Below are positions 9,342-52,888 of a DNA stretch of 64,000 nucleotides, in pieces. Below the pieces are notes generated by a model. It saw only the letters and a program-made list of their open reading frames with translations. It was not told the DNA's origin and ran no database searches. Numbering within the stretch: the stretch's first letter is position 1; each line of letters begins with the position of its first letter. Source of the DNA: Pandoraea communis. GTDB lineage: Bacteria; Pseudomonadota; Gammaproteobacteria; Burkholderiales; Burkholderiaceae. The DNA is taken from contig NZ_CABPSJ010000005.1 in the NCBI RefSeq assembly GCF_902459745.1, positions 248,001 to 312,000 of the forward strand, in the 5' to 3' direction. The position numbers were made by a program, and so were the translations under genes.

Positions 9342-9360
9342 GTGCGGCCGAATCCGTCAA

Positions 9361-36067: not shown

Positions 36068-36735
36068 CTACGCAGTAGCGCAGGCCAGCGTTCGCATGCG
36101 CGTCAAGTTGTACGCCGCCTGCGCAAGCGGAAACCGCTGTTCGACCCGCTTGTGGCCGCGATGCATCGCCTGCCGAATGCGACCGTCCGTTCTGCGCTAT
36201 CCAAACACTTATTCGATGCGTTTGCGTTTCCGTTGGCTTATCTCCTAGCCGGGCCAACGTGTCGTCCGGCCATCAATGGCCGAGCCGCCCCGACGCGCGT
36301 GGTTCCGCGCCACATGCGGCGTTATACGGTAGGCGCGACCGGCCGCCACGAAGCCTGTCTTGCCATGGTTCTCGCCGGCGCCGACCACGATGGGCGTCGA
36401 TACTGCGGGGGCGGCATCGGCAAGCGTCTCGATCGCCGCATCGCGCTCAGCGGTCCCGTGCGCCGCCAATGTGACCTGCGCATTGGCCACCGGCTCTTGC
36501 CGGTTATCGCTCAGCACATCGCCCGTATTGCAAAGTACGGCGCCGGTCCCCTTGCGCTTGCGAAACAGACGCGCCCGGTCATCGGTCGTCGATTCTTGCG
36601 TGGCGTTGCTGCGTTTCTGGCCGCGCGAGTCCTCGTTGGGCGTCTCCGGCTTGTCAGGTGGCGTTTCGCCGTCCGACTTGGCTTTGGGCGCGAGACGCTC
36701 GTGTCCTGCCCACGCTTGCTCAGCGCGATTGGGCG
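36068..36735 (-). pseudogene. Decayed IS5/IS1182-type DDE transposase
   Basis: Minus-strand text recovers the C-terminal half of a DDE transposase over several frames. In order: SNATQESTTDDRARLFRKRK, GTAERDAAIETL, AYRITPHVARNHARRGGSAI, DGRTTRWPG then a stop, RKRKRIE then a stop, and HRGHKRVEQRFPLAQAAYNL-TRMRTLA ending at 36068. Premature stops and frameshifts show the gene is dead. No intact inverted repeats were found. A 320-codon plus-strand ORF over this stretch is its antisense shadow. Confidence 0.8.
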
Positions 36736-36748
36736 CAATGAGACCGCA

Positions 36749-36932
36749 GTCACCATTGCTTCAAGCGGCCAACGGGAATGGAGGAGGCGTAGCGGCTACT
36801 TTCGGCGCTCGCTGGGCGAGAATCTCACCTATCGGCTCACCGGCAACCGAGTGGCGAACCCCGTCGGGGTGCCGGGACGCATGACGACTCTCGCCAAGGC
36901 GCAGTTCATAAGTATCGCTGCTAATCGCAGAT
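36749..36932 (-). repeat. Inverted repeat copy A flanking the YfhO-like gene
   Basis: The minus-strand sequence here (ATCTGCGATT... through AATGGTGACTG) is clearly homologous to 39361-39550 on the plus strand, roughly 70-75% by eye. Both copies contain GGTTGCCGGTGAGCCGATA and a shared frame reading SVAGEPI.E..AQR.P..VAT. Confidence 0.75.
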
Positions 36933-36974
36933 AAAAAACGATCTTCACGCTAGATTTACAAGATTCGCTTAAAT

Positions 36975-39185
36975 ATGGAGATGAAAATTTCTAAATACCA
37001 GAGCTCTTGCAACTGGAAAAGTTGCAATTCTTCGGGCTATAAAAATATTGCGATCGCAATATTTTTCTTGCTTTTGCATTTCTCATTTTTCTATGAGAAT
37101 TTATTTGGAAAAAGTTATACGGGATGGGATACGCACGACTGGAGCTTCGTGAATTTCACGTATTTTAGTGATGCGCTCAGGAGTGGAAGTGTTCCGCTAT
37201 GGACTCATTTTATTCAATCTGGGAATTTTTTCCCAAGCTTCAATAATGTGGGTTTATATACGCCGTTTCAGTTGATATTTATAGTGCTTGCGTGGGTGAT
37301 TAATCCCCTGCAATCCTACGAGTTCATGATCCAGGCCGCAATGCTTGTCGGTGTCCTGGGGGCATATTCTCTGTTTCGAGCGCAAGGCGCAGGGCGAATG
37401 GTGGCGTTATTCGGCGCTGCCGCGTTCGATCTCACCGTTCAGTTGCCCATTACCGGGCAAATGGTCTTCGTTTTTTCATTCAGTTCGTTACCCTGGTTGT
37501 TGCTCGTTTGTTTGAATATTATTCGCGGAAACTCGCGTCGCCCATACGTTGTTGTTTGTCAGGCGGCGTTTTTTGTTTTGTATATCGCTTCGGGATATCT
37601 GTGGCTGAACGTTGTCAACTTGATTATCGCGTTTTTGTTTTCGGGGGGCATGTATCTATCGCGCATGAGGGCGGCGAGCATCGAGCAGCGGATGGTTTTG
37701 CGGAGGGTGGCATTGACCCTCGGATTGTTCTTTTTAGTAATTGGAGTTCTGTATGCTGGATTGATATTGCCTGGCATTATCAATCTTAGTAGTTATTATG
37801 GAAAATTCTACGGCGATTTTGTTTCGCCTGATCCGAGGTTGCGCAGTCTGTTGCCCGCAGAGAATTTTTCATATAACTCAATTTTTCATGCAGTGGCGGC
37901 TGCGATCGATCCCCGCATTGCAGCGAATGATCCGATTTGGTCGGCCGATATGCGGGCCGCCTGGCCCTATGGTGCCGGCTGGGTCTTGTGGATTGTCGTG
38001 TTGGCGACGCCTTGGAAAAAGAAGGTGTTCTCAAGTCAGAGTTTCTGGTTGATTTTGCTTTTCGTTGCATTGCTTTATTCAACCGGTAATCGATACGGCA
38101 TTAATAAAATTATCGAGCACATTCCTGTACTTAAAGCAAATCGCTGGTGGTTTGCGGGTGGGTACTACTGTTCGATAGCACTCTGCATGCTTGCAGTTTT
38201 GAAGTTGAATGCGCTGTCATCAAGTATTACTCTCCGCCAAGCGACCTCGCGGATTTGCCTGGTGTTGGTTCCAGTTGCTTTCATTTTCATTGCGCTCGAC
38301 ACGCCGATTGAGCAGTACCACGTTGTGGCTGAAATTGCTTTGCTTTTCTGGCTGCTAAACGTAGTGTCCGATCGTTTGTTAAGAAACGTATTGCTGATGA
38401 GCTTGGTTTGCGTGAGTGCATTTTCGTTTCACGAGATTCCTAAATCGATGCCGAACTATAAGTACTCGAAAATTCCGGATTTATCTGGATATTTCGAGAA
38501 AATGGGGAGGCGAAAGGTGAATGTTGAAATTACTGAAAATTTCCGTAAACTTTCAACCGCGCACGACTATGTCTTTGATGATGAGGACTGGTTGCTGAAT
38601 AAAGTGCCGTTTGCGCATGGTTATAATCACCTGAGTAATCCGATTTACTGGTACGTAAAGAATGACGCGTTTTTGGCTAGGATTGCATTTTTGGCGCAAG
38701 GTGAGCGGGTCGATAAAATATTAAGTCGGCGCGATTTTTCGAGCGATAACGCATACGCGGAAGCGCTCGCTCGACAGATATCGGATTCCCCGCTTCATCC
38801 GATTGTGGGTCCCGAGAATTACCAGGGCGCTGCATATGCCGATGCCGTGTCCGGGAGAATAGATAGAATCAGTATTTTTCCTAATTCGGCAAAAATCACC
38901 GTGGTGACGAGCTCCCCGGCGTTGCTGGTGTTTAATAATGTAAGTTACGCAGGGTGGCGCGCTTACTTAGATGGAAAGCCAGCAGAATTGATTTCGGCGA
39001 ATTTGATTTTCCAGGGGGTCCGGATTCCCGAGGGAGGTACGCATACGGTTGAGTTTGTTTTTAGGCCTTATTTCACGATTTTCATGTTGGCCTCGCCTTA
39101 TTTTGTGCTGTTCCTGTGCGCGTTGTTTTTTTTGAGGCGGCGTGTGCTGGACGTGCGTCTGAGTAGAGTTGGCGTGGGAGCCTGA
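36975..39185 (+). CDS. YfhO-like multi-spanning membrane protein (putative GT-C glycosyltransferase)
   Basis: 736 residues, AT-rich. About 12 transmembrane helices fill residues 25-480, beginning NIAIAIFFLLLHFSFFY. The first loop holds GWDTHDW, resembling the acidic motif of GT-C enzymes that use polyprenyl-phosphate sugars. A soluble segment (about 500-700) ends with SYAGWRAYLDGKPAELISAN then GVRIPEGGTHTVEFVF, the typical YfhO C-terminal signature, and a last helix. Likely transfers a sugar from a lipid carrier on the periplasmic side; the neighbouring GtrB-like enzyme could make that carrier. It is flanked by the inverted copies A and B. Confidence 0.8.
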   Translation: MEMKISKYQSSCNWKSCNSSGYKNIAIAIFFLLLHFSFFYENLFGKSYTGWDTHDWSFVNFTYFSDALRSGSVPLWTHFIQSGNFFPSFNNVGLYTPFQLIFIVLAWVINPLQSYEFMIQAAMLVGVLGAYSLFRAQGAGRMVALFGAAAFDLTVQLPITGQMVFVFSFSSLPWLLLVCLNIIRGNSRRPYVVVCQAAFFVLYIASGYLWLNVVNLIIAFLFSGGMYLSRMRAASIEQRMVLRRVALTLGLFFLVIGVLYAGLILPGIINLSSYYGKFYGDFVSPDPRLRSLLPAENFSYNSIFHAVAAAIDPRIAANDPIWSADMRAAWPYGAGWVLWIVVLATPWKKKVFSSQSFWLILLFVALLYSTGNRYGINKIIEHIPVLKANRWWFAGGYYCSIALCMLAVLKLNALSSSITLRQATSRICLVLVPVAFIFIALDTPIEQYHVVAEIALLFWLLNVVSDRLLRNVLLMSLVCVSAFSFHEIPKSMPNYKYSKIPDLSGYFEKMGRRKVNVEITENFRKLSTAHDYVFDDEDWLLNKVPFAHGYNHLSNPIYWYVKNDAFLARIAFLAQGERVDKILSRRDFSSDNAYAEALARQISDSPLHPIVGPENYQGAAYADAVSGRIDRISIFPNSAKITVVTSSPALLVFNNVSYAGWRAYLDGKPAELISANLIFQGVRIPEGGTHTVEFVFRPYFTIFMLASPYFVLFLCALFFLRRRVLDVRLSRVGVGA

Positions 39186-39360
39186 ATCAGCGTAGCGCTT
39201 GTGGGGCGTCCGGGGGGGGGGATGAGGAAGCCGCCAGCTGCGGCGCGCCTAAGCGGCTGCGGCCATTTGTTGGCCTCGTTGTGTCGTAACGAAATGAGGC
39301 TTGATACAATGGCCGCACATTGCTGCATAAATCGAGTTTGACGATAGGGGGGGGCTTGTG

Positions 39361-39550
39361 ATCTGTGATTCGAGCGATACGGACGGGCAGGGGCCGTGCG
39401 GGAGTCGTCAGGTGGGTCAGTTCCCTGGTGCGGATCGCCGCTCGGTTGCCGGTGAGCCGATACGTGAGACTCCTGCCCAGCGAGTGCCGACAGCAGTCGC
39501 TACGCTCCTTCTTTCCCCGTCGGCCGCTTCGAGCAACGATGGTGATGGTC
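39361..39550 (+). repeat. Inverted repeat copy B
   Basis: Homologue of 36749-36932 in the opposite orientation, so the pair brackets the 2.2-kb YfhO-like gene. Frame text RRSVAGEPIRETPAQRVP parallels HSVAGEPIGEILAQRAP in copy A. Poly-G tracts of 10 (39212-39221) and 8 (39347-39354) lie just upstream. Confidence 0.75.
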
Positions 39551-40043
39551 CCGTAGCGCCAACTCGCGCCGGGCGTCTCGTCAGGTCACGGCACAGCTCC
39601 TTTGCGCGGCTGAATTGCCGGTTGGGTGTGACGCACGGTAATCGTTGTACTGTGCTATTTCGTGCCGTACACACCGTCGATACTGCCTACGTCTTGATGT
39701 GTCATTCAGTGCCGCTCACGCCCGAGCCGATTTCACGTCCTTTCCAGATACGCCCGGCGTCAAGCATGTCGCCGGCGCCTTCCATTTGCCTTCGCCGTAA
39801 AGATTCAAACGCACCCTATCCACAATCATTGCGCGCGAACATCGTCGTGTCGCGCGACGACCGGGTTTGTGCGGGACGCTGAAACTTTGCGAATTGAATT
39901 CGATTTGGTGATTTATCTGAATATCCGTTTGTGGAAAATTCTGTTGGCAATGGCGCTATTTTTTAATTGATTTGTAGTGCGTTGCTGCGGTGGGTCGGGA
40001 GGTTGGATTCATCAGTTTTTACAATAATGAATGATGATGAAAT
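39551..40043. other. Non-coding stretch before the GtrB-like gene
   Basis: About 490 bases. Plus-strand ORF text continues from copy B without protein character. The last ~150 bases are strongly AT-rich and probably hold the promoter of the glycan operon. I see no definite promoter pair, RNA or complete element. Confidence 0.4.
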
Positions 40044-40970
40044 ATGAGTGAGTTATATAGCGTTGTCATACCGGTTTATAACAGTTCCGGCATTGTCGCC
40101 GAAACCGTAAGGCAAGTCCGTGAGTATTTTTTGACTGCGGGAAGGTCGTTCGAGATCATTCTTGTGAACGACGGTAGTAAGGACAATAGTTGGCCTGTAA
40201 TATGTGACCTCGCTCGTAAATATAGCGAAATTGTTTCAATAAACTTGCTGAAGAATTACGGGCAACATAGCGCGAATCTGTGTGGTTTTCGAGAATCAAA
40301 GGGGGATTACGTCATTACGATGGACGATGACCTGCAGAATCCGCCGGGTGAAATCGGGAAACTCATCGATGCCGCGCGCGACGAATATGACCTCGTAATT
40401 GGGAAGTTTGAGGCCAAACGGCATTCGATTGTGCGCCGAATAGGTAGTCAGTTCGTCGGGTGGCTTAATCGAAAGGTGTTCGACGTAAGCGATGATTTGA
40501 TTTTGACAAATTTCAGAATCATTAGAAGGGACGTGGTCGACCGTGTTTGTCGAGACAATTCATATGCACCGTACATTCCTGGGCTCGTTCTCAAGTACTC
40601 TGGACGTCGGTGTAATGTATTGGTTCGCCATCAACCAAGAGCCGAAGGTAAAAGCAACTATACGGTGAGACGAATTTTGCGATTGGTTGCGTCGATCCTA
40701 TTTAATCATTCGGTGCTCCCGTTGCGTTGTTGCGCTGCATTGGGGTTTGTTATTTCCGCCGTTGGTTTCGCGCTTGGTTTTTATTTTCTGATCCAGGCAA
40801 TAGCTAACGGGACAAGAGCTCCGGGGTGGGCCTCGTTAGCAGTTCTGCTTTCTTTCTTTAATGGAATTTTAATTCTCCTGTTGAGTGTTATGGGAGAGTA
40901 TCTTGGCCGGATTCTGCGTGAATTAGGCGCGCAGCGTAGCTATGAGGTCAGGGAGACCGTGCGTCAATGA
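40044..40970 (+). CDS. Polyprenyl-phosphate glycosyltransferase, family 2 (GtrB/ArnC-like)
   Basis: 308 residues. The N-terminal GT-A domain begins YSVVIPVYNSS, has EIILVNDGSKDNSW and the metal-binding MDDDLQNPP, then LTNFRIIRR. Two C-terminal helices (about 230-295) anchor it, as in GtrB, ArnC and DPM synthases. It would move a sugar from a nucleotide donor to undecaprenyl phosphate on the cytoplasmic face. The gene overlaps the sulfotransferase by 4 bases. It supplies a lipid-linked sugar for GT-C enzymes such as the YfhO-like protein. Confidence 0.9.
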   Translation: MSELYSVVIPVYNSSGIVAETVRQVREYFLTAGRSFEIILVNDGSKDNSWPVICDLARKYSEIVSINLLKNYGQHSANLCGFRESKGDYVITMDDDLQNPPGEIGKLIDAARDEYDLVIGKFEAKRHSIVRRIGSQFVGWLNRKVFDVSDDLILTNFRIIRRDVVDRVCRDNSYAPYIPGLVLKYSGRRCNVLVRHQPRAEGKSNYTVRRILRLVASILFNHSVLPLRCCAALGFVISAVGFALGFYFLIQAIANGTRAPGWASLAVLLSFFNGILILLLSVMGEYLGRILRELGAQRSYEVRETVRQ

Positions 40971-41743
40971 AAAATCTGTTTATCGTCGGCGCACAGCGTT
41001 CGGGATCCACCTACTTGTATCAGTTGTTGGACGAACATCCGGGTGTGAGTATGGCGCATCCGGTTCGCCCAGAACCAAAATTCTTCCTGAATGACGAGTT
41101 GGTATTGAAGGGGCGGGAGTATTACGAGCGCGAATACTTCAAGGATCGTGATGCAAGAACAATTTATCTGGGCGAAAAAAGTACCTCGTATATCGAGAGA
41201 GATGACGTCGCAAGGAAGATAAAACAGTTTTATTCTGACGCCAGAATTTTGATGATTTTGCGTGATCCCGTGTCGAGGGCTTATTCGAATTATCGATTTA
41301 GTGTCGAACACAAAATAGAAGATCTTTCTTTCAGTGCTGCTCTAGCTGCCGAGCCCGAGCGGTTGAGGGGCGCAAAGTTCTCCACCTCAGTGACGCCGTT
41401 CGCCTACCGCCGGCGCGGAAATTATATTGATTATATCGAGAGCTATCTGAAGGTGTTTGACGCCAAGCAGATTCGCGTCGTCATTTTCGAAGAGATCGTA
41501 GGTAATCTACAGGAGGTGCAGTTGCTGTACCGTTGGCTCGAATTGGACGACACGGTTGTACCCGAGGCGCTGCATAGAGTATTCAATTCGGCCACTGTGC
41601 CGAAGGGAAATGAAGGCCGGGCTTTTCGGGATTTGGTGACGGGCTATCAGGATAGCATCTTGCGATTGGAGAAGTTTCTTCAGCGAGATATAGATGTTTG
41701 GCGAGAGCATCACAAAAGAATTGAGTGTAACGAGTCGATATGA
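40967..41743 (+). CDS. PAPS-dependent sulfotransferase
   Basis: 258 residues. The 5'-phosphosulfate-binding loop is at the N-terminus (FIVGAQRSGSTYLYQLLDEH) and the 3'-phosphate site follows (LMILRDPVSRAYSNYRFSVE, residues ~94-113). KSTSYIERDD between them offers the family's substrate-side segment. It transfers sulfate from PAPS to a hydroxyl on a sugar or lipid. Overlaps on both sides (ATGA) couple it to the glycosyltransferase and the flippase-like gene. CysD and CysNC at 47650-51011 can supply its PAPS, an arrangement reminiscent of NodH with NodPQ. Confidence 0.92.
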   Translation: MKNLFIVGAQRSGSTYLYQLLDEHPGVSMAHPVRPEPKFFLNDELVLKGREYYEREYFKDRDARTIYLGEKSTSYIERDDVARKIKQFYSDARILMILRDPVSRAYSNYRFSVEHKIEDLSFSAALAAEPERLRGAKFSTSVTPFAYRRRGNYIDYIESYLKVFDAKQIRVVIFEEIVGNLQEVQLLYRWLELDDTVVPEALHRVFNSATVPKGNEGRAFRDLVTGYQDSILRLEKFLQRDIDVWREHHKRIECNESI

Positions 41744-42738
41744 AGCAGGCGCTGAAATTTTTAGTTAGCGTCGCACTTGTCGTTTTTGCTGTGTCGCTTT
41801 TGGATTTTCACTCGATGCTTCGGACTCTCAAAGAAGGGTCGTTGGCGAGCTTCGTGATCGCGATTTGCATCAATATTTTTACCGTCGTTATTCTTGGGTT
41901 CCGTTGGCATAGATTGTCAGTTGCCCAGGTGCGCCTTTCATTCCAGTCGCAACTCGCCATCTATTTCAGGGCCAATTTTTTGAACACGTTCACGCCCGCT
42001 AACCTCGGAGGAGACGCTTATCGTCTGGTGAAATTGAGGCGGCCTTCTCTTTCGAGTGCGGATTTGGTGAAACTGTTATTGCGCGAACGGATTATTGGAT
42101 TCTACGGATACATATTGGTTTTTTCGATCGCCTATATCTACTTGCTGGTCCAATCTGGATTTCGTACAGCGTGGGTGGAGAATCCGTACGTTTATGGAGC
42201 CATGATCGCAATCGTTGCTCTCGGACTGCCCATTGTTGCCAAGCCTTTGTTGCATTGTACGATCACTATTTTGCATAGTTTTAAAGGCGGGCGGCGATTC
42301 ATTGCCTTCGAGCGGTGGATTTCGGTTGTCTTTGGTCTGCTGACCACAACAGGCGCGTTGCCAATGCTGGGGATTACCTTTCTTGGCATATTCTCATGGA
42401 TAGCTACCATCCAAGTGATTGCCCACGGATTCGGCTTTTCCGTTTCGTGGGTTCAGTTGGCCGCGGTAGCCACGTTGGTGGAACTGATCCGTCTCATACC
42501 CGTTACCGTTCAAGGGGTCGGCCTGCGCGAAGGGGTGTTTGCGTATCTATTGGGGTATTGGGGATATAGCCACGAAAATTCCTATGTGATCGCGATGATG
42601 GCGTACTTGGCTTTAAGCGTATCGATTGTGCTTTGCGGGCCGATAAGTTACGCAATTGATGCAGCAAGTACGGAGCGCGTGAGTGCGTTTCTACGCAAAA
42701 TCGTCAGGGGGCGAACTGAAGAAGATGGTCGACAGTAA
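41740..42738 (+). CDS. Lysylphosphatidylglycerol-synthase-TM / UPF0104-type membrane protein
   Basis: 332 residues with about 8 helices, the first at LKFLVSVALVVFAVSLLDF. Conserved family pieces include FLNTFTPANLGGDAYRLVKL (residue ~80), LLLRERIIGF and VELIRLIPVTVQGVGLREGV (residue ~250). The UPF0104/AglD-like family is frequent in glycan clusters and is linked to lipid or lipid-linked sugar movement across the inner membrane. Here it may flip the GtrB-type product. It is coupled to the sulfotransferase by a 4-base overlap. Confidence 0.88.
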   Translation: MKQALKFLVSVALVVFAVSLLDFHSMLRTLKEGSLASFVIAICINIFTVVILGFRWHRLSVAQVRLSFQSQLAIYFRANFLNTFTPANLGGDAYRLVKLRRPSLSSADLVKLLLRERIIGFYGYILVFSIAYIYLLVQSGFRTAWVENPYVYGAMIAIVALGLPIVAKPLLHCTITILHSFKGGRRFIAFERWISVVFGLLTTTGALPMLGITFLGIFSWIATIQVIAHGFGFSVSWVQLAAVATLVELIRLIPVTVQGVGLREGVFAYLLGYWGYSHENSYVIAMMAYLALSVSIVLCGPISYAIDAASTERVSAFLRKIVRGRTEEDGRQ

Positions 42739-42806
42739 TTTCAGATTGTCGATGAATCGGATCTTATGAAGCCCGGAAAATTATTAATTGTAAAAAGAGG
42801 TGTGAG

Positions 42807-43346
42807 ATGAAAGGGGTGACAAGTTACTCCGGAGTCGCCGGATTCTATTTTCGTTACTTGTTAAACCAGATCGTCCGCATCGGCGAGTTAAGGAAGCCAG
42901 GTCTGGTAATATTGGATTTCGGTTGCGGGAACGGAGAGTTGAAGCGCTTGCTGAAGGATGGGGTGGTGGGCTACGACATCATTCCAGATTTAAGCGACGT
43001 CTCCGATTGGCGGGGTGTTGAGTTTGATGTGCTTGTGGCGAATCAGGTATTTTATAGTTTTGATGAGGTGAGTCTCGAGAATCTATTGATTGAATTAATC
43101 AATCTAAATAGAAAGATAAAAATGGTTGTTGGGATAAGCCGGCAGGGGTGGATGAATAAAATAGGAAAATATCTTCTTGGTCGACCAAATGCTCATTCGG
43201 CAACGAAAATTTCCCCGCAGGCCGAAATCGGATTGCTGATGAGATATGGTTCGATTGTCCGAAAAAAGAGTATCTTTGGACTCACGGATGTTTTTCTGTT
43301 GGTCTTGAATGAAAAAAAACCAGAATCTTTTGATGAAAAAAGATGA
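42807..43346 (+). CDS. Class I SAM-dependent methyltransferase-like protein
   Basis: 179 residues, with AGAGGTG before the ATG. The nucleotide-binding motif I is ILDFGCGNGELKRLLKDG (residues ~33-50), followed by GYDIIPDL (motif II) and FDVLVANQVFYSF (motif IV). Shorter than most family members and Lys/Ile-rich with AT-biased codons. It may methylate a sugar or lipid of the local glycan. It overlaps the next gene if that gene starts at its first or second ATG. Confidence 0.78.
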   Translation: MKGVTSYSGVAGFYFRYLLNQIVRIGELRKPGLVILDFGCGNGELKRLLKDGVVGYDIIPDLSDVSDWRGVEFDVLVANQVFYSFDEVSLENLLIELINLNRKIKMVVGISRQGWMNKIGKYLLGRPNAHSATKISPQAEIGLLMRYGSIVRKKSIFGLTDVFLLVLNEKKPESFDEKR

Positions 43347-44610
43347 AATGAAATCATTCCTAAAGAAAATTCCCAGAGGTGTTATTTATCACAAGGTGAC
43401 GGATAGCGTTCGTTATCTGCTTGCTTCTATGCTTGCTCCACTTCACAAGAAGGAGAAAGTCATAGAGTTTGAGAACATCTTTGCCAGTTATTGTGAGCGT
43501 AAGCACTGCATTGCGTTTCCGTTTGCAAGAACTGCAATTTATTTTGTTCTGAAGGCCCTGGATTTGCCGAAGGGAGCTGAAGTTATTCTTCCTCCGATCA
43601 CGATCAAGGGAATTGTCGATGTTGTCGTGGATCTCGGTCTCACGCCCGTATATGTGGATTTGGATGCTGACACGATCAATTTCCGACTGGATCAACTGCG
43701 CGAGAAGCTCAATCCAAACGTCAAGGTAGCCATCATCACGCCGCTGTTCGGCTTGGTGCCCGACGTATCCGCTATGGTGGCTCTGCTCAAGGCGAATGGT
43801 GTTTTCGTTATCGAGGATTTTTCGCAATGCTTGAACGGTCGATACGACAACAGGCGCGTTGGGACTTTTGGTGATGTTGGGATTTACAGCGCTTCGTCGA
43901 TCAAGACCCTGGATACACTGGGAGGCGGGCTTGCGATCACGGATGACCAAGTAATTCACGACAGACTGAGGAACGCGCAGGCTGGATTGATGCCTGCACG
44001 CAGGACGGCGTTGATCAAGAAGGCCTGGGTCAATCTCGTGCGTAATGTCGCCACAAGCGAGCCGGTGTTCTCCTTGCTGACATTTCCGGCACTGCAACTC
44101 GTTCGCCAGCGAGATCCGGAGGCTGCTCTCAAGCAGACCGGGCATCGCGACAAAGGACGGCTTGCGACGCTTCCGCTTCTATGGTTTTGTCGGTATACAT
44201 CGGTACAAGCGCAGATCGGCATTGAGCAGATCAAGGGCGTTATCGCTCAAGACGCCGCGAGAGTGGCAAACGTCGAGTTCCTGAAAACGTATTGCGAAAT
44301 TGATGATTTCCCAAAGACTACTCAGGAGTCGCGTAATGTTTACTGGCAGTTGATTCTTCCAGTTTCCAATGCGCTTGAAGCCCAAGCTTACTTTGCAAAG
44401 CGAGGTATTGACAGCGCGACTTCAAGCTTGGAATTGGTTTGCGCGTTGAAAGACTATCCGAACCGCGCCGACTTGCAAACAGCGCAACGTATTTATAGAA
44501 ATGGGATATTCATCCCATGTTTCCCACACCTCAGTCAGTCGGATATGCAGCGGATTGTTATGGCTGTAAACGGCTATTTTCAAGAGCGTGGGCATGCAAA
44601 AGAAGGCTAA
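43333..44610 (+). CDS. DegT/DnrJ/EryC1/StrS-family sugar aminotransferase
   Basis: 425 residues from ATG 43333; ATG 43309 and 43348 are possible because no clear ribosome site decides. PLP-fold landmarks: FPFARTAIYFVLKALDLPKG near the N-terminus, VFVIEDFSQCLNG with the PLP-ring Asp, and SSIKTLDTLGGGLAIT with the Schiff-base lysine (S.KT/TLGGG). These enzymes convert keto-sugar nucleotides to amino sugars or, in a few cases, dehydrate them. The N-terminal ~45 residues are unusually basic. It overlaps the methyltransferase gene slightly. Confidence 0.88.
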   Translation: MKKDEMKSFLKKIPRGVIYHKVTDSVRYLLASMLAPLHKKEKVIEFENIFASYCERKHCIAFPFARTAIYFVLKALDLPKGAEVILPPITIKGIVDVVVDLGLTPVYVDLDADTINFRLDQLREKLNPNVKVAIITPLFGLVPDVSAMVALLKANGVFVIEDFSQCLNGRYDNRRVGTFGDVGIYSASSIKTLDTLGGGLAITDDQVIHDRLRNAQAGLMPARRTALIKKAWVNLVRNVATSEPVFSLLTFPALQLVRQRDPEAALKQTGHRDKGRLATLPLLWFCRYTSVQAQIGIEQIKGVIAQDAARVANVEFLKTYCEIDDFPKTTQESRNVYWQLILPVSNALEAQAYFAKRGIDSATSSLELVCALKDYPNRADLQTAQRIYRNGIFIPCFPHLSQSDMQRIVMAVNGYFQERGHAKEG

Positions 44611-46228
44611 CCGCGATCTTGACACCATGAGTGTCGCGATCATCGGCAGCGGCCTTGCGGCGGTCGGTGCGATAAAGGCATTGAGGAATCTGGGTATTCG
44701 GCCGACTGTGTTCGATTGGGGCGAAGGGCTGGATCAGGACAGCGAAAAGAAGGTCGAGGCATTGGCGGCTACGTCCCCCGTGGCGTGGACTCCATCGGAT
44801 AGGAAGTGGCTGAATCAGAACCATACCCTGAGGGATGGCTCTTCGATCCCTAAAAAGCTCGTATTCGGTTCAGACTATTTTTATGGGGCGTCGCGAGTTG
44901 AAGCCCCTGTCAAGGCGACAGGGAACGTACCTCCGTTCAGTTACGCGCTCGGAGGACTCAGTAGCGGATGGGGGGCTGCAGCGCTTCCTCCTCAGTCCTG
45001 CGACCTGTCTGACTGGCCGGTAGACGCGGATGAGTTGCAAAAGTACTGCGAAATAGTCCTTGCGGACCTGCCATATTCCGCTGCGGATGACGCTCTGAGT
45101 TTGAATTTCCCGCTGTCATCGCGCAGTGCCGTACCGCTTCAACTTAGCCGGGCTTCAGAGAAACTGCTGACGGCGCTACATAAGGCCAAGGTGCTCAAGG
45201 AGGGGGAGACTATCTTTGGGCAGGCTAGGCTACTGGTGGACGCCGGAACTGGCAGCGCAGGGGCGGGCTGCAGGTATTGTGGTCAATGTATGTCTGGTTG
45301 CGTCTACGGTTCCATTTACAAGGCTGCACACGACATCCTGGCTCTGCGTGATAGGGGGGAGATCGATTACGTCCCGGGGTGTCTGGTCGACGGGCTTGCC
45401 GAGGAGGGGGAGCATGTTTCGGTGTGCTATTTCGATGGGAACGGGGAACTGCGTAGGCAAGCGTTCGATCGCGTGTTTGTCGCGGCGGGGGCTGTGAACA
45501 GCGCCAGGATTGTCCTCAACTCGTTGGGCGAGTTCAATAGGAAAGTGCAACTCAAGAGCCGCGGCGGCTTTGTACTGCCGGTGTTTAGCTTGCGACGATT
45601 GCCGATAAACTGGCCACACTGTAATACTCAGCCAGGTCTTTTCCTCGAACTAAAAGGCAAGGGGCTTGAGCACTGGGCGCACGTGCAAATCTCAACTGAG
45701 AATGAACTGCTGATGCAGAAGCTCGGTGTGTCGGCGGAGACGAAAGGCTTCGTCAGCCGCGTCAAGCGCTTTATCGCGGAACACACTTTTCTGCTGTTGG
45801 TAAACTATCATTCCGACCATGCGGGGACTTACGAGTTGAGCGTTGCGGCCGCTGCAGATCCGGAGATTGCCAACCCGCTTTATTCGGTTCAGCGGAAATC
45901 ATTCCCTCAGGCGAAGGTGATGTGGGCATCTGCCATTAGACTGCTAAAGGTGTTTGGGCGAATTGGTTGCTTGCCGCTATTTCCGTTCGCAAAACTGAAT
46001 AGCGGTGCCTATCATGTCGGGGGTACGCTTCCTATGAGATCGGAGGCGGTTGACAGCTTGGAGACTGATACGTTGGGTAGGATTCACGCTTGGAAGCGCG
46101 TTCATATAGTAGATACGTCGGTGTTCCCGTCTTTACCTGGGACGACGATAGGCTTGCTCGCGATGGCGAATGCTTACCGGATTGTCGATAATATTCAGTG
46201 GTCCAAGGATATCGGGGCGTCAGAATGA
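44594..46228 (+). CDS. GMC-family FAD-dependent oxidoreductase
   Basis: 544 residues from ATG 44594 (AAGAG 7 bases upstream; GTG 44588 and ATG 44627 are alternatives). The FAD Rossmann motif is VAIIGSGLAAVGAIKALRNLG. The middle has GGLSSGWGAAALPPQS, and a CRYCGQCMSGCVYGS cluster (four Cys) near residue 220 could bind a metal. The C-terminus shows the GMC block YHVGGTLPMR and VHIVDTSVFPSLPGTTIGLL. Some related enzymes oxidise sugars or cyclitols. In this cluster it may oxidise a glycan sugar hydroxyl. It overlaps the wecE-like gene by 4 bases. Confidence 0.85.
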   Translation: MQKKANRDLDTMSVAIIGSGLAAVGAIKALRNLGIRPTVFDWGEGLDQDSEKKVEALAATSPVAWTPSDRKWLNQNHTLRDGSSIPKKLVFGSDYFYGASRVEAPVKATGNVPPFSYALGGLSSGWGAAALPPQSCDLSDWPVDADELQKYCEIVLADLPYSAADDALSLNFPLSSRSAVPLQLSRASEKLLTALHKAKVLKEGETIFGQARLLVDAGTGSAGAGCRYCGQCMSGCVYGSIYKAAHDILALRDRGEIDYVPGCLVDGLAEEGEHVSVCYFDGNGELRRQAFDRVFVAAGAVNSARIVLNSLGEFNRKVQLKSRGGFVLPVFSLRRLPINWPHCNTQPGLFLELKGKGLEHWAHVQISTENELLMQKLGVSAETKGFVSRVKRFIAEHTFLLLVNYHSDHAGTYELSVAAAADPEIANPLYSVQRKSFPQAKVMWASAIRLLKVFGRIGCLPLFPFAKLNSGAYHVGGTLPMRSEAVDSLETDTLGRIHAWKRVHIVDTSVFPSLPGTTIGLLAMANAYRIVDNIQWSKDIGASE

Positions 46229-47407
46229 TTCGTTTCAATTTTCCTTGCCTGGCAGGTTCGGAACTGAAGTATTTGCAGGATGTGCTTGAGCGGGGGCGTC
46301 TTGCCGGAGATGGGGAGTACACGAAGAGATGCTCTGAATTTCTCCTCAATTACCTGGGGGGGGGCTGCCGGAGTTCTGCTAACCCATTCCTGCACTGCGG
46401 CATTGGAAATGGCCGCGTTGCTTGCGGATATCCAGCCCGGTGACGAGGTCATCATGCCCTCGTACACCTTCGTTTCGACCGCGAATGCCTTCGTTTTGCG
46501 TGGTGGGATTCCGGTTTTCGTTGATATTCGCGAGGATACGCTTAATATCGATGAAAATTTGATCGAGTCTGCGATTACGCCGAGGACCAAGGCTATCGTT
46601 CCCGTGCATTACGCGGGTGTCGCTTGTGAGATGGGCGTGATCATGGACATTGCGAAGCGCCATGGTTTGATGGTTATCGAGGATTCGGCGCAAGCCTTGG
46701 GCAGCGATTACCATGGACGGAAACTCGGAACGATTGGCGATTTGGCCGCATTCAGTTTTCACGAGACCAAGAATATCGTCTCTGGCGAAGGTGGTGCGCT
46801 TGTCATCAATAATCCAAGATTCATGGAGCGCGCGGAAATCATCCGTGAAAAAGGCACGAACCGCTCCCGGTTCTTTCGCGGCGAAGTTGATAAGTACACT
46901 TGGGTCGATATTGGCTCGTCATACCTGCCCAGCGAACTCGTGGCCGCCTTTTTGTATGCTCAACTCCAGAGCGTTGATGAGATAAACAATCGTCGTATGG
47001 CGATCTGGAATCGATACCATGAGATGTTTCGTGAGGGTTTGGGGCTTGATGAATCGATCAGACTCCCCTCTGTTGCCGAGGGCATTACCCATAACGCTCA
47101 CTTGTTCCACCTCATAACACGCGATCCTGATGAGCAGGAGCGGGTACTTGCAGGTCTAAAAGCGAGCGGGATTAGCGCCGTCTTTCACTATGTTCCGCTT
47201 CACTCGTCTGACGCCGGAAGGCGGTTCGGGCGCTTGGGTTCGGGCATGCAAGTTACCGATAGTCTGTCGGCAAGATTGGTGCGATTGCCTCTTTACCCCG
47301 ATCTGCGCGAATCGGAGGTCGTTGAGATTGCGGAAAAGACGCTTGCACTCTTGATGACATCCAACTCGCGCGGACATTTCCCCGTTTCTGGCGCTTGCCA
47401 GAAATAA
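46225..47407 (+). CDS. wecE: WecE-like TDP-4-oxo-6-deoxy-D-glucose aminotransferase, frame-interrupted at a poly-G tract
   Basis: ATG 46225 overlaps the previous stop. The N-terminal part (MIRFNFPCLAGSELKYLQDV...RGRLAGDGEYTKRC) and the C-terminal part (THSCTAALEMAALLADIQPG onward) each match WecE but lie in different frames. They join at nine Gs, 46356-46364. With eight Gs the frame runs through as NYLGG-AAGVLLTHSCTAA to 47407, giving about 393 residues, close to WecE length. The PLP lysine is in FSFHETKNI and the Asp in VIEDSAQALG. The family transaminates dTDP-4-keto-6-deoxyglucose to the 4-amino sugar. As sequenced it is off; phase variation or a base-calling error would explain this. Confidence 0.85.
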
Positions 47408-47444
47408 CACGGCTAAAGGCGAATGCCTTGGCCGGGGGGGGGGG

Positions 47445-47472
47445 CTCTTCGGCGTTCGGGGGCGCCGAAGAG
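47445..47472. terminator. Terminator-like hairpin after 11-G tract
   Basis: CTCTTCGGCG pairs with CGCCGAAGAG across an 8-base loop, between the convergent wecE-like and cysNC genes. It follows directly on an 11-G run (47434-47444). There is no T-run, so it may act as a Rho-independent barrier only weakly. Confidence 0.55.
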
Positions 47473-47649
47473 GGTTGCTGGGATGGACTTGGTCGGCGAT
47501 CACGTGACTTGAGTGTTCCAGCTTTTCGAGGCGAACCCGAACGGCACTGCGCTCACCGATGACAACTGCTGGCGGTCTTGATTGTGCCGGCATTTGCACT
47601 GAGTGAGTCGACTCGGGGGGAATGCCTGAGACACGAAGACGGCCTGCAA

Positions 47650-49575
47650 TTAGGCGGGTTCGAGGAGCGTTTTTATAATCGTTTCGACCGCGTATTCGGT
47701 GGGGTGATCCTGACCTTCCACGATGAGCTGCGGGTGCTCCGGAGGTTCATAGGGGCTATTGATCCCGGTCATGTTGGGGATTTGACCCGCACGAGCCTTC
47801 TTGTACAAACCCTTCGGATCTCTCGCTTCGCATACTGAGAGCGGAGTGTTTACGTATACCTCAAGAAAATTCTCCGCGCCAATTAGGTCGCGAGCCATTT
47901 CACGTTCGCGTTTAAACGGCGAGATGAACGCGGTCATCACGATCATGCCGGCGTCCATCATTAACTTTGCGACTTCGGCAATACGTCGAATGTTCTCTAC
48001 GCGGTCACCTTGCGTGAAGCCCAGGTCCTTGTTCAGCCCTTGCCGAATGTTGTCGCCGTCCAGGAGGTATGTCCGCATCCCTCGTTGATGGAGTGCAATT
48101 TCCAGCGCGTTAGCGAGCGTTGATTTGCCGGAACCGGACAGGCCGGTAAACCAGATGACCCTGCCTTCGTGTCCATTGAGTCTCTCTCGATCAACGCGCG
48201 TAATCGAAAGCGGTTGCCTATGGACGTTTTCCGCTCGGCGCAGGCTATGACGAATCATCCCTGCTGCGACGGTGGTGTGACTAAAGCGGTCGATGAGAAT
48301 GAAGCTGCCGAGAGTGGGGCAGTTGTCGTAGGTGTCAAAGACCAGTGGTTTGCTCGTTGCGATATTGCACGTCGAGATATCGTTGAGCGCAAGCGTCTTG
48401 CTGGCTTGGCGGGATGCGGTATTGATGTCGATGCGATGCTTGATTGTCGTAATCGATGCCGATGCCGATTGGGTAGACAATTTAATATCGTAACTGCGAC
48501 CGGTGAGGCCTGCATCCTCATGCATCCAGACCAGCGTGGCTTCGAATTGGTCTGTGGTCTCCAAGGGCGACTGGCTCGATGAGATCACGTCGCCACGCGA
48601 AGCGTCGATTTCCCGATCGAGTCGAAGTGTCACCGCGTCGCCGCTTGTCGCCGCGTCAAGCGAGCCATCCATGGATAAGATTTCGGAGACGATTGCCTTA
48701 TGCCCGGATGCGGTCACGCGAATTTCTTCACCGACCCGCACGCTCCCTCCGGCGATCGTGCCGCAAAAGCCTCTGAAATTTGAATCTGGCCGGTTGACCC
48801 ACTGCACCGGAAATGCGAAACGATCCGAATGCCGCGGTAATACCGTGATGCTTTCCAGATATCCCAGCAAGGTGGGGCCATTGTACCAAGGTGTTTGCGA
48901 GGACCGCTCGGTGATGTTGTCGCCCCTCAGCGCGCTCAGGGGGATTGCAGAAATCGACGCAAAGCCAAGCGGGTTGGCGAAGGCATCGAAGGCTTCTCGG
49001 ATCTCATGGAAGGTTTCCGCCTTGAATCCGACCAGGTCCATTTTATTGATGGCCAAGGCCACGTGGCGGATCCCCAATAAAGATGCGAGGAACGCGTGAC
49101 GTCGTGTCTGTGTGAGCAGGCCGCTTCTTGCATCCACCAATAATATTGCTACATCGGCATTGGATGCGCCGGTGACCATATTGCGAGTATATTGCTCGTG
49201 CCCAGGGGTGTCGGCCACGATAAATTTTCGCTTGCTGGTGGCAAAGAAGCGGTAGGCCACATCGATTGTGATTCCCTGTTCCCGTTCGGCCGCCAAGCCG
49301 TCGACCAGTAAGGCAAAATCGACCTCGTCACCTTGTGTTCCATATTTCTTGGATTCTGAGCGCAATGTGACGATCTGGTCGTCGAAGAGTTGCTGTGCCT
49401 CCCATAGCAGTCGGCCGATCAGCGTACTCTTCCCGTCGTCTACACTGCCGCAGGTTATAAACCGAAGCAGATCCTGGTCGCGCTGTTTTTCAAGAAAGGC
49501 TTCGATGGTGCCGGCTTGTTCGGCTTGCCTTGGCCGGCGCAACTTGTCCTGAGTTTTGTTTGGCATGCGGCTCAT
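47650..49575 (-). CDS. cysNC: Bifunctional sulfate adenylyltransferase GTPase subunit / APS kinase (CysN-CysC)
   Basis: 641 residues. The N-terminal EF-Tu-like GTPase (about 30-430) has [32 protein letters not shown] and NKMDLV. The C-terminal APS kinase (about 450-641) has the P-loop [17 protein letters not shown], then [18 protein letters not shown] and [10 protein letters not shown]. CysN stimulates ATP sulfurylase CysD by GTP hydrolysis, and the kinase phosphorylates APS to PAPS. It overlaps cysD by one base. NodQ of rhizobia has the same fusion and serves sulfated glycolipids. Here it faces the sulfotransferase cluster. Confidence 0.95.
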
Positions 49576-51011
49576 CAGAAGTACCCCTCTTGCTTTTTCT
49601 TTTCCATGCTGGCGTTACCGTCACTGTCGATCGCCCGACCTTGCCGCTCGGAAGTGCGTGTATTAATTAGTTCCAGAATGATTTCAGGTACCGACGTGGC
49701 ATCCGATTCGATCGCCCCGGTGAGTGGATAGCAGCCGAGTGTGCGGAAGCGGACCATTTTCTCTGAAATCTCTTCGCCGGGCAGCAGGCGGAAGCGATTG
49801 TCGTCGACGAGAAGGATGGCGGCGTCGCGCACCACCACGGGGCGTACTTTCGCGAAATACAGCGGCACGATTGGGATATCTTCCTGGAGGATGTATTGCC
49901 AGATATCGAGCTCAGTCCAATTTGACAGCGGGAAGGCACGGATGCTTTCGCCTCGGCTCTTTTGGGTGTTGTACAAATTCCATAGCTCGGGGCGTTGGTG
50001 CTTTGGGTCCCAACGATGCGTTTGTGTACGAAACGAAAAAATGCGCTCTTTGGCTCGAGACTTTTCCTCGTCGCGTCGTGCGCCGCCGAAAACAACATCG
50101 AACTTGTATTTGTCCAACGCTTGTTTAAGCCCTTCTGTCTTTGTGACATTCGTGTGAAGTGCAGACCCGTGATCAAATGGATTAATGTCTTTGGCAATGG
50201 CCTCGGGGTTGACATATACCAGCAGATCCTGACGACTGACTTCGGCCAGACGATCACGGAACAAGTACATTTCCTGGAATTTCCATCTCGTGTCGACATG
50301 CAGGAGCGGAAATGGCGGCGGCGCCGGAAAGAAGGCCTTGCGAGCAAGATGCAGCATAACCGAGCTGTCTTTGCCGATGGAGTAAAGCATCGCGGGGTTG
50401 TCTGCTTCTGCGACAGCCTCGCGAATAATATGAATGCTCTCAGCCTCCAGGCGCTTAAGGTGCGGTGTTGCGGCGAAGCGCCTTGGCGCTACTGCGCTCT
50501 GGAGTGGTGCCACAATCGGCGGGTATGCGTTGGGCGTGAGCGTGACCAATTGCGTAGAGGTCGCTTCGCGAAGCCAGCGGACAAGTTCGCCGTGAGGGAA
50601 AACTGCAATCTCTTTGCCCACGTGTTGCTGAATGCGTTGTAAGGCAGCAAGCAATATCGCGGTGCCGAGGGGCGCATCGATAGGAAGCCAGTAAACGGCG
50701 CCACGTGCGTCATTGGCTTGCAGGCTGGTGACGCCGTTAGGCATTTCGTGCAGTTGCGCGAAGAGGGGGAGCTTGCGCTTGCTTCGGGATTTGTCCAACG
50801 CCCAGGCAAGCACGAGGTTGTTTGCCGGCCGCCCCAGTTCGTCTTCCAACGAATCCTCCCCAAGCTCCCCGGCGAGAACACGCAAGTCACGCAGGCGTCG
50901 TTCCGCTGTGCGCTTGGTACTGACCTCGCCCAGTGATTGCAGATGCTGGAAGGCTGTTTCGGTGTCCCAGACCCGGTCTGCATCAAGGCCAAAGATGACA
51001 GAAGTCGTCAT
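49575..51011 (-). CDS. cysD: Sulfate adenylyltransferase subunit 2 (CysD) with novel N-terminal domain
   Basis: 478 residues from ATG 51011 (GAG at ribosome distance; ATG 51017 or TTG 51032 also possible). The C-terminal ~300 residues are ordinary Cys[40 protein letters not shown] (PP-loop SxGKDSS), [19 protein letters not shown], then GCYPLTGA. The first ~180 residues have no counterpart in standard CysD (about 300 residues) and include no internal start near the core. I do not recognise this domain; it is mixed helical with [20 protein letters not shown] and [13 protein letters not shown]. It is the first gene of the cysD-cysNC operon. Confidence 0.93.
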
Positions 51012-51082
51012 GCGCATTGTCTCAATATTCAAATTGATGGAATTTCACGGTGTTTTTTTCTTATTCAGTACTTCTTGGTGAG

Positions 51083-51088
51083 TATAAT
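51083..51088 (+). promoter_or_regulatory. -10 box in the divergent cysD / TauE promoter region
   Basis: A perfect TATAAT lies on the plus strand, with no strong -35 at the usual distance. It stands 17 bases upstream of the first ATG (51105) of the small ORF. Confidence 0.4.
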
Positions 51089-51125
51089 CCATCGATTGAA
51101 CATAATGCGACGAGCAACCCAGATC

Positions 51126-51338
51126 ATGGCGGGACGTCTGATTCAAATTGTCAGGTTGGCTGGGGCAGGAGTGCCGTCGGGGTCTTCTGCGCTCTCGATT
51201 GACGAAGCTGCTCGTCTGAGTCATGAGCTCATGGAGCCAAATGCAGATGCGTATCCTCCGACGATGTTTGAGTTGCCCCCCCGTTTCATCTCGCCGGTTG
51301 CGGCTTCCGTCCCGCTCTCGGATTTGAGGTGCCTGTGA
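51126..51338 (+). CDS. Small ORF translationally coupled to the TauE-type gene
   Basis: 70 residues (MAGRLIQIVRLAGAGV... ending PVAASVPLSDLRCL); ATG 51105 would give 77. Its stop overlaps the TauE start as GTGA, a typical coupling arrangement. There is only a weak ribosome site and no known domain. It may be a leader ORF or a real small protein. Confidence 0.35.
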   Translation: MAGRLIQIVRLAGAGVPSGSSALSIDEAARLSHELMEPNADAYPPTMFELPPRFISPVAASVPLSDLRCL

Positions 51339-52114
51339 TCGACTCGACTTTCGTCCTGGCGGGGGCAGTTACAGGCTTCGTTGTGGGGCTGACCGGGGTT
51401 GGTGGCGGGGCGCTCATGACTCCCATCCTGCTCTTCGTCTTTGGCATCGCTCCGACCACGGCAATTGCGACAGACCTTTGGTTCGCGGCCATCACAAAGT
51501 TGTTTGGTGCCCGGATTCATTACCGTGCGGGTCAGGTTGATTGGCAGGTGGTGAGGCGATTGTGGGCAGGCAGTTTGCCCGTTTCCCTTGGCGTGGTCTT
51601 GCTGGTGAGCGCAGGTGGTGTGGTTGCCAAGGCGGAATGGCTCACCAACATTGTTGTTGGGGTGGTGATGCTGACTGCCTTTGGCCTGATTTTCGCACCT
51701 CGCCTATCCGCGGCCGCGCGTGGTCGACGACTGAGCAATCCTGATCGGTTCAAGGCGATGCAGCCCGGTCTGACGGTGCTGGTCGGCGCGACGCTGGGTG
51801 TGTGCGTTGCGCTTACTTCCGTCGGAGCTGGTGCTTTGGGCACCGTCATGATGATGAATCTATATCCGCTCCGCATGACGCCGCATCGTTTGGTCGCCAC
51901 GGACCTCGTTCATGCCATTCCACTGGCGGTCGTCGCCGGAATGGGATATTTGTTTGCCGGTGCTGTGGATTGGCAGATGCTCGCCAGTCTGCTGGTTGGC
52001 TCGATTCCGGCGGTTATTATTGGCAGTCAGTTGGCGGGAAGGGTGTCGGGCCGATGGCTGCAGGTGGCCCTTGCATTGGTGTTGCTATCCACGGGGCTCA
52101 AAGTGCTGATCTGA
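51335..52114 (+). CDS. TauE/SafE-family sulfite/anion exporter
   Basis: 259 residues from GTG 51335 (GTG 51329 also in frame), with TGAGGTG upstream. It contains eight predicted helices in two halves, each opening with the family motif: VLAGAVTGFVVGLTGVGGGA (residue ~8) and VGATLGVCVALTSVGAGALG (residue ~145). Members export sulfite or organosulfonates or move other sulfur anions. Next to cysD/cysNC and a sulfotransferase, it may relieve sulfite or sulfate imbalance. It is divergent from cysD. Ligand not determinable from sequence. Confidence 0.88.
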   Translation: MIDSTFVLAGAVTGFVVGLTGVGGGALMTPILLFVFGIAPTTAIATDLWFAAITKLFGARIHYRAGQVDWQVVRRLWAGSLPVSLGVVLLVSAGGVVAKAEWLTNIVVGVVMLTAFGLIFAPRLSAAARGRRLSNPDRFKAMQPGLTVLVGATLGVCVALTSVGAGALGTVMMMNLYPLRMTPHRLVATDLVHAIPLAVVAGMGYLFAGAVDWQMLASLLVGSIPAVIIGSQLAGRVSGRWLQVALALVLLSTGLKVLI

Positions 52115-52259
52115 GTCTGAGTCGTCTATTGGGATTTGGCGTGCGTCGGCGCTGCTTTCTCCTGATCTCCGTAATTCGACTCCGCAGTGGGATTGTTGCA
52201 AATGCGCGTTGTGGCGAGCGGTCAGCGCGAAAAATAGTGCGATCTGCCCGGCGCGCGGT

Positions 52260-52769
52260 CGTCAGGACGAGGGGGGCGTATATGGCTCGGAGCAGGTGGC
52301 CAAGCTCAGTCCGATCCGTGATGGCGGCGAAGTGCTTTGTCTTGATTGGTGACAAAGCGCCGCGTAGGTCTACGGTAACGGCCCGCTTAGCTCGTGCTGT
52401 AGCGACGGGGTAGCGCATCACCTGACCGATGTTGACGCGAAGTCAATGCGCGGTTTCCAGCTTGCCTCTCTACGCGGCGCAAAGCATCCAACACCTCCAA
52501 CCCTTCCAGCTCGGCGATCGGCTGGCCACCAATCCGCGGGAAAGCATAAGGCGACAAGTGGCGTGGGATTTTTTGCGCGTAGCCGTCTGTCCAGTTCGAC
52601 GCGAATCTTGCATGCATTCACGCGCCACGACTTCGAAGCAATTCCCGGAGTTCCGGCAGGCAGTGCGTTTCTCCGCTTTCCTTGCTTCACCCGGATCAAT
52701 GCCATCGGCAAGTCGATACGTTTTATGTGCTGGTTTTGCTGTGCGAGCTTCGGCGTCTGTAAGTGCCAT
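52260..52769 (-). pseudogene. Decayed tyrosine-type site-specific integrase next to tRNA-Thr
   Basis: The N-terminus is recognisable: MALTDAEARTAKPAHKTYRL-ADG at 52769. After an apparent deletion come DPGEARKAEKRTA and CFEVVARE. In a second frame stand RIGGQPIAELEGLEVLDALR-RVE, and in a third YPVATARAKRAVTVDLRGAL and SPIKTKHFAAITDRTELGHL-LRAIYAP. Frameshifts and missing blocks show loss of function. The catalytic C-terminal half (R-H-R-Y) is absent. It resembles P4/IntS-type integrases, which use tRNA 3' ends. Confidence 0.82.
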
Positions 52770-52817
52770 GATTGCGACGCCATGCTGTTGGGGTTATCGG
52801 TCGCGGGAGGCTCAGTT

Positions 52818-52864
52818 ATGCCCCCCCCAAAATGCCCCAGATTGGTCGAGATTAGGGGGGGCAT
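52818..52864. repeat. C-tract / G-tract inverted repeat
   Basis: ATGCCCCCCC (52818-52827, in an 8-C run) pairs with GGGGGGGCAT (52855-52864) across 27 bases, between the integrase remnant and the tRNA. Confidence 0.6.
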
Positions 52865-52888
52865 TGCATTGGCACCTCGCGAGAAAAC

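Follow-up and report, generated by a model that had tools for sequence, protein, structure and literature searches.

The Arn pathway (ArnB-ArnC-ArnT-ArnE/F) places 4-amino-4-deoxy-L-arabinose on lipid A, the CsbB-GtcA-YfhO and Gtr three-component systems combine a polyprenyl-phosphate-sugar glycosyltransferase with a flippase-like protein and a YfhO/GT-C transferase, and the NodPQ-NodH system dedicates CysD and CysNC to a sugar-modifying sulfotransferase. Here we describe a block of eleven genes from Pandoraea communis that shares parts with all three. The block, hereafter the island, spans positions 36975-52114 of a 64,000-nucleotide stretch (the window; contig NZ_CABPSJ010000005.1 of assembly GCF_902459745.1, positions 248,001 to 312,000) of a genome of 5.7 Mb in 17 contigs. 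Among its products are a sulfotransferase (ST) of the type that uses 3'-phosphoadenosine-5'-phosphosulfate (PAPS), an ArnC-like glycosyltransferase (GT2), two aminotransferases (AT1 and AT2) and proteins for PAPS synthesis. Our preferred reading, to which we assign a probability of about 0.6, is that this acquired module builds an amino sugar bearing sulfate on a polyprenyl-phosphate carrier for transfer to an acceptor at the cell surface, in the manner of the Arn donor pathway supplemented by a sulfotransferase.

The likeness to the Arn pathway lies in an amino-sugar transaminase of the same superfamily, a GT2 closest to ArnC, a GT-C-like transferase and a monophosphate-linked donor, and some related loci in other bacteria also carry EamA/SMR-like partners. 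Unlike the Arn pathway, the island has a transaminase of WecE type rather than ArnB type, its operon includes a sulfotransferase, the place of ArnT is taken by a YfhO-related protein, and no match to the ArnA formyltransferase or the ArnD deformylase was found among the eleven island proteins, to which that search was confined. The three components of the CsbB-GtcA-YfhO and Gtr systems likewise occur together in the island, the YfhO link being made through relatives only. To our knowledge, those systems transfer plain hexoses or N-acetylglucosamine, and none is known to include a sulfotransferase or dedicated PAPS genes. The substrate of NodH is a completed lipo-oligosaccharide, whereas the partner of the island ST is a polyprenyl-phosphate GT2.

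The N-glycan of Halobacterium is assembled on a lipid carrier. Its sugars are modified by the sulfotransferases Agl30 and Agl31, but this is an archaeal N-glycan with sulfated uronic acids (PMC11980604). Sulfotransferases also lie in the glycan clusters for the capsule of Vibrio sp. KMM 8419, which has extra copies of cysD, cysN and cysC (PMC11641403), and for synechan (xss; PMC8205485). Those polymers are exported by ABC or Wzx/Wzy routes, and the accessible portions of the two reports describe no donor module of GT2, ST and transaminase. Nor was such a module described in the titles and abstracts that our literature search found, subscription journals being largely outside its coverage.

RESULTS

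An overlapping GT2-ST gene pair recurs in distant bacteria

The genes for GT2 (40044-40970), ST (40967-41743) and a flippase-like membrane protein (41740-42738) follow one another on the plus strand. GT2, probably a polyprenyl-phosphate sugar transferase, passes the Pfam model Glycos_transf_2, ST exceeds the Pfam cut-offs for Sulfotransfer_3 and Sulfotransfer_1, and the flippase-like protein exceeds that for LPG_synthase_TM. The GT2 and ST genes overlap by 4 bases, as do the ST and flippase genes, so the three are probably carried on one transcript.

When 84,980 species genomes were scanned with an alignment of STs, 59 loci came back, and the ST was re-found in 56 of them; these counts include Pandoraea terrigena itself and one of the three rows of the query alignment (L121). 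We scored a GT2 as paired when it had at least 40% identity and lay directly upstream on the same strand, and an AT2 relative at an identity of at least 45%. Pairs by this definition occur in 37 of the 56 loci, which are labelled as ten phyla: Chloroflexota (14), Pseudomonadota (6), Planctomycetota (6), Bacteroidota (3), Desulfobacterota (2), Nitrospirota (2), and Patescibacteria, Cyanobacteria, Actinomycetota and Omnitrophota (one each). The labels come from record titles, mostly of metagenome bins, and STs are nearly identical within L100/L101 and within L115/L118 despite different phylum labels, probably through binning errors; some labels are therefore wrong, and the phylum count is a guide. 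The GT2 identities outside Pandoraea, 44-73%, nevertheless indicate real divergence. The GT2 and ST frames overlap in 37/37 pairs when counted from longest-frame starts, a counting that favours overlap. Every GT2 scanned matched the ArnC model (36/36), and every AT2 scanned matched the WecE models (29/29). An AT2 was present in 30 of the 56 loci, within 3 kb in 24 of them, and accompanies 25 of the 37 pairs.

To relate pairing to ST descent, we built an ST tree of 69 rows, comprising the window, the 56 scan loci and 12 of 16 control loci. All 38 paired rows (window included) fell within one clade of 50 with support of 100/99, and the other 19 rows were all unpaired. The pairing label changed 7 times on the tree, compared with 22.9 times in shuffles, and none of 500 shuffles gave a value as low. 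The clade had been found through its own pattern motifs (QR.G.T and RPEPKFF), and pairing was not used. Residues R11, E36, K38, R99 and S107 are invariant in 50 of 50 ST rows, in part an effect of how the scan patterns chose those rows. The 16 control loci were fetched from 63 ST-family-matching genomes among 369 of the class. A GT2 was found in one (L051, the same record as L121) and in none of the other 15; one of the 16 is a 3.5-kb contig (L054), and in another (L058) the script did not re-find the ST and the frames gave no GT2 hit. In the reverse search, GT2s at an E value of ≤1e-50 were found in 5 of the 369 class genomes, and the two with at least 46% identity (the source genome and G656) are accompanied by an ST.

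The surroundings of the pair vary. Polytopic proteins of at least 450 residues lie within 6 kb in 23 of the 37 pair loci and are of several kinds (PMT_2, YfhO and DUF6044); of the 15 that were scanned, four exceeded a Pfam cut-off, namely PMT_2 (L074), YfhO (L093 and L109) and DUF6044 (L094). Downstream of the ST, 11 loci have small EamA/SMR-like families, and a hexapeptide acyltransferase family adjoins the module in six. The order in one locus labelled Planctomycetota (L068) is as in the window, without the flippase: GT2, ST, a methyltransferase-like protein (MT), AT1, a GMC-type oxidoreductase and AT2. A Methylobacter locus (L070) has an APS (adenosine-5'-phosphosulfate) kinase, AT2, GT2, ST, GMC, AT1, MT and a flippase relative at 35%, and two further loci (L069, Desulfopila, and L072, Marinobacter) combine GT2 and ST with two small membrane proteins, a relative of the hexapeptide acyltransferase, AT2 and a polytopic protein. 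In L094 the DUF6044 protein (8130-9941) stands in place of the PMT_2 and YfhO proteins found elsewhere, which hints that DUF6044 is a GT-C-like transferase.

The MT-AT1-GMC trio recurs in three fetched loci, those of P. terrigena (L067), L068 and L070. In the window, all three genes are on the plus strand. MT (42807-43346) has weak Pfam matches under the cut-off and 59% relatives in both L068 and L070, the DegT-family AT1 (43309-44610) exceeds its Pfam cut-off and has relatives at 67% and 60%, respectively, and the GMC protein (44588-46228) is barely over the cut-off for GMC_oxred_C, with relatives at 63% and 58%. As a guide to related loci the GMC protein proved poor, with matches in 25 of 300 genomes of the order and a best non-self identity of 31%; one matching genome (G154) has a locus with GT2- and flippase-like genes and no ST hit. 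We also considered the full island set as a conserved unit and rejected it: only GT2-ST, often with AT2, recurs. We read GT2-ST, often with AT2, as a conserved and apparently undescribed donor module. A constant donor side combined with a varied transferase would fit acceptors that differ between lineages.

Protein relatives point to a probable carrier-linked amino sugar

Among solved structures, the ST profile matched 3rnl best (E value of 2.6e-34), followed by the heparan N-sulfotransferase NDST (1nst, 6.8e-15) and 3-OST5 (1.2e-14). ST thus falls within the sulfotransferase fold family, with PAPS-binding segments, by both Pfam and structure search and is predicted to be a PAPS-dependent carbohydrate sulfotransferase. 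The heparan N- and 3-O-sulfotransferases score nearly equally, so the sulfation site cannot be read from these relatives. The GT2 family profile found ArnC (9hwj, E value of 1.4e-72) as its best solved relative and also the GtrB-like sll0501. ArnC is likewise the top NCBIfam match of the island GT2, at 176.8 bits, far under the cut-off of 529, and we regard GT2 as a protein that probably works like ArnC without being a member of that family.

The AT2 gene (46225-47407, plus strand), whose product likewise belongs to the DegT family and exceeds its Pfam cut-off, is frame broken. Its open piece (46280-47407) passes two WecE models with 529.4 and 509.2 bits (cut-offs of 375 and 434.85), and the P. 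terrigena AT2, open over 401 residues, scores 582.8 and 559.7 bits. On the ArnB model, AT2 reaches 206 bits and AT1 93.9 bits, compared with a cut-off of 631. The best solved relatives of AT2, 4piw and 6blg, are TDP-4-keto-6-deoxy-D-glucose and dTDP-4-amino-4,6-dideoxygalactose transaminases. With the frames read separately, AT2 starts near 46225, not 46280, and the break lies inside a G run at 46356-46364. The region 36951-52950 holds five runs of at least 8 G or C (at 39212, 39347, 46356, 47434 and 52821), compared with 0.33 expected under a first-order chain; the remaining 48 kb of the window holds none (0.87 expected), and P. terrigena has one in 47 kb. This suggests that the break in AT2 reflects either phase variation or an assembly error.

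The first gene of the island (36975-39185, plus strand) encodes a polytopic protein of 736 residues, 84% identical in P. terrigena, that has no Pfam match of its own. A profile built from it and its P. terrigena copy finds the polytopic proteins of L093 (E value of 2.4e-13) and L109 (1.1e-10), both of which exceed the Pfam cut-off for YfhO. We therefore describe it as YfhO-related, GT-C-like and probably the enzyme that passes the sugar to the acceptor. A 202-bp inverted repeat (72%; 36718-36919 and 39373-39574) flanks this gene and leaves a fainter trace in P. terrigena.

The island encodes the genome's only recognized APS kinase

Two genes on the strand opposite to GT2-ST encode sulfate activation. 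The cysNC gene (47650-49575, minus strand) joins the ATP sulfurylase large subunit to APS kinase (NCBIfam PRK05506, 946.8 bits; cut-off of 715), and cysD (49575-51032, minus strand) matches CysD models over residues 183-485 and has an extra N-terminal domain. Both products exceed their Pfam cut-offs, as does the TauE/SafE-family transporter encoded next to them (51329-52114, plus strand; Pfam TauE). The APS kinase model PF01583 has a single match in the genome, the island CysNC, and the strain's PAPS therefore most likely comes from the island only. A second pair of PAPS_reductase-family genes at C9:186680-188253, adjoined by a TauE relative (39%), we took to be the assimilation locus; the island thus combines CysD with a CysN-CysC fusion apart from assimilation, as in NodPQ. 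No CysQ-like gene stands beside the island cysD in the window, and no match in the whole genome exceeded the CysQ model cut-off, which is strict, 2 of 14 control genomes passing it.

The N-terminal domain of CysD (approximately residues 1-185, some 185 in all; 50481-51032, minus strand) finds no match in Pfam, in NCBIfam or among plasmids, and no solved structure is a convincing relative. The domain is kept elsewhere in the order, in 15 of 399 genomes (own included) and at 29-53% identity in the other 14, with a signature around WDTE..F.HL, KRTAERRL and NDARG, and is fused to CysD in several Burkholderiales genera. In each of the ten loci fetched, it was fused to CysD, with CysNC next in order (split in L169), and a TauE relative was present in six. 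Three neighbours tested at such loci belong to the inositol-phosphatase family, one of which passes the CysQ model, and one locus (L163) has a Sulfotransfer_3 gene nearby.

APS kinase matches occur in 8 of 32 Pandoraea genomes and are full-length in 6. Five such loci (L134-L138) from four genomes without the island lack the GT2-ST module. One of them, from another Pandoraea genome (G026, L137:10222-12438), has an ST-like frame (E value of 6e-10) adjoining the APS kinase and outside the island family studied here, and another (L134, G014) has a weak ST-like frame (6.1e-5).

The block was inserted beside a tRNA gene

A search of 61 genomes found the island ST in 2 of the 32 Pandoraea genomes, the second carrier being P. 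terrigena LMG 31013, which has all eleven proteins in identical order and at the same site with 84-95% amino acid identity. Synteny of the whole block indicates that the gene set is more than chance. All 10 other Pandoraea genomes fetched have the site without the island. From the Pfam match of a DUF1415 gene to a tRNA-Thr gene, the distance is 173-720 bp in these ten relatives, the widest gap being that of the closest relative by this locus (G005), compared with ~17.3 kb in the window. The inserted unit, ~17 kb in size, runs from approximately 35640 to the tRNA-Thr (CGT) gene (52957-53032, minus strand), which marks its right edge. Island genes have a G+C content of 0.43-0.60, compared with ~0.62-0.66 in most flanking windows, in agreement with the AT-richer stretch remarked on in the first-pass annotation of this DNA. 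Judged by insertion relative to relatives, a tRNA edge and odd composition, the block is an acquired genomic island.

No direct-repeat ends were found, with no common word of at least 11 bases between 35551-37000 and 52401-53040. A degenerate remnant at 52470-52864, putatively of an integrase, has no Pfam match. Further to the left, 31706-34831 (minus strand) encodes two adjacent ankyrin-repeat-like proteins with weak Pfam matches only, which diverge fast (~67% in P. terrigena).

DISCUSSION

What we observe is the gene content, the insertion, one APS kinase match genome-wide and a GT2-ST pair conserved, often with AT2, across many groups; the chemistry, the order of steps and the acceptor are predictions. 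RmlB, present in the genome outside the island, would supply dTDP-4-keto-6-deoxyglucose, to which the WecE-type AT2 would add a 4-amino group. The ArnC-like GT2 would then move the amino sugar to undecaprenyl phosphate, and ST would sulfate it, still in the cytoplasm, with PAPS as the donor. The flippase-like protein would turn the lipid-linked sugar outward and the YfhO-related protein would attach it to lipopolysaccharide or another envelope glycan. CysD-CysNC would make the PAPS and TauE would move a sulfur anion. In the Pandoraea island lineage, GMC and AT1 may oxidize and aminate a second carbon, and MT may cap the product. The position of the sulfate is likewise a matter of inference.

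The first-pass annotation had named a sulfotransferase, a GT2, a flippase-like protein, two aminotransferases, a GMC oxidoreductase, cysD-cysNC and TauE, and Pfam and NCBIfam models recognize all of them. Its central point, that sulfotransferase and lipid-linked sugar genes occur together with a PAPS route, is strengthened by their place in an acquired stretch, by the genome's only APS kinase match and by the wide conservation of GT2-ST. "Self-contained", however, was too strong, with RmlB elsewhere, no CysQ match over the cut-off and one aminotransferase frame broken. The proposed likeness to NodH/NodPQ holds for the sulfate-activation half, while the glycan half is better matched by the Arn pathway; we rejected NodH-like logic for the whole unit because ST is tied to a polyprenyl-phosphate GT2. 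The gene order that it proposed to seek in other genomes is fully syntenic in P. terrigena, but elsewhere only GT2-ST, often with AT2, was found. It had also held that its reading would fall if cys and glycan genes never co-occurred elsewhere. They do, if barely: an APS kinase or CysD/CysNC lies within the fetched flanks of 3 of the 37 pair loci, namely that of P. terrigena itself, Methylobacter L070 and Peregrinibacteria L087.

That low count weighs against our reading, as do several other observations. Gene neighbourhood is not chemistry, and AT2 is broken in the window strain. A directly upstream GT2 is lacking in 19 of the 56 scan loci and for 12 of the 50 clade STs; among the latter, the GT2 stands 403 or 1033 bp upstream in two, a different GT2 lies downstream in two and some are at contig ends. 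Three GT2 relatives at ~35% in the class have no ST. Of the 15 polytopic neighbours scanned, 6 had no Pfam match and 5 (in L071, L087 and L068, and two in L051) matched below the cut-off only; with so few over a cut-off, the GT-C label is mostly inferred.

The unpaired clade STs also bear on an alternative that we consider unlikely, namely that the target of ST is not the sugar of GT2 but a finished glycan, a small molecule or a lipid, and that the two genes lie side by side as a result of the variable loci common to sulfation and surface-glycan functions. STs of other clades do sit in varied loci, as the 15 control loci without GT2 attest (L058 with the reservation given above), and loci for sulfated capsules are reported to be marked by PAPS genes with sulfotransferases (PMC11641403). 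Frame overlap in all 37 pairs and the confinement of pairing to one ST clade argue against this alternative. We think it very unlikely that the module contributes one residue to a larger polymer (O-antigen, capsule or glycoprotein) whose synthesis is encoded elsewhere in the genome, instead of providing a decoration of one sugar. Some related loci have Wzx-like genes (Polysacc_synt, L074) and further glycosyltransferases; yet GT2s of the ArnC and GtrB kind make monophosphate-linked donors for GT-C enzymes, and no Wzx, Wzy or initiating transferase was recognized in the island. Most improbable, in our judgment, is that the island is decaying in the window strain and makes no sulfated glycan. 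The AT2 break and the degenerate, Pfam-less remnant at the expected place of the integrase would suit decay, but the other ten frames are open and 84-95% identical to those of P. terrigena, and a break in a long G run could be phase variable or an assembly error.

A bolder extension of our reading, which we hold to be decidedly unlikely as stated, is a "sulfo-Arn" pathway in many phyla, in which a WecE-type transaminase and an ArnC-like GT2 would load an amino sugar on polyprenyl phosphate, to be sulfated there by a dedicated ST, in some lineages on the amino group. A sulfamate would then replace the N-formyl group of the Arn pathway and provide a general route to negatively charged, lipid-carried surface sugars. 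The hexapeptide acyltransferase neighbours in six loci speak against the N-sulfate version, as they would suit an acetylated amine.

If the module acts as we propose, sulfation of surface sugars on a polyprenyl-phosphate donor would be a widespread bacterial trait, not limited to rhizobial signals, cyanobacterial slime and marine capsules. An ArnC-like GT2 overlapping an ST would serve as a marker pair for sulfated envelopes in genomes, and the enzymes would be a source for making sulfated sugars. Some Pandoraea species are reported to infect cystic fibrosis patients (PMC8052242). Two lineages of the genus, those carrying the island, would be predicted to have an altered surface charge.

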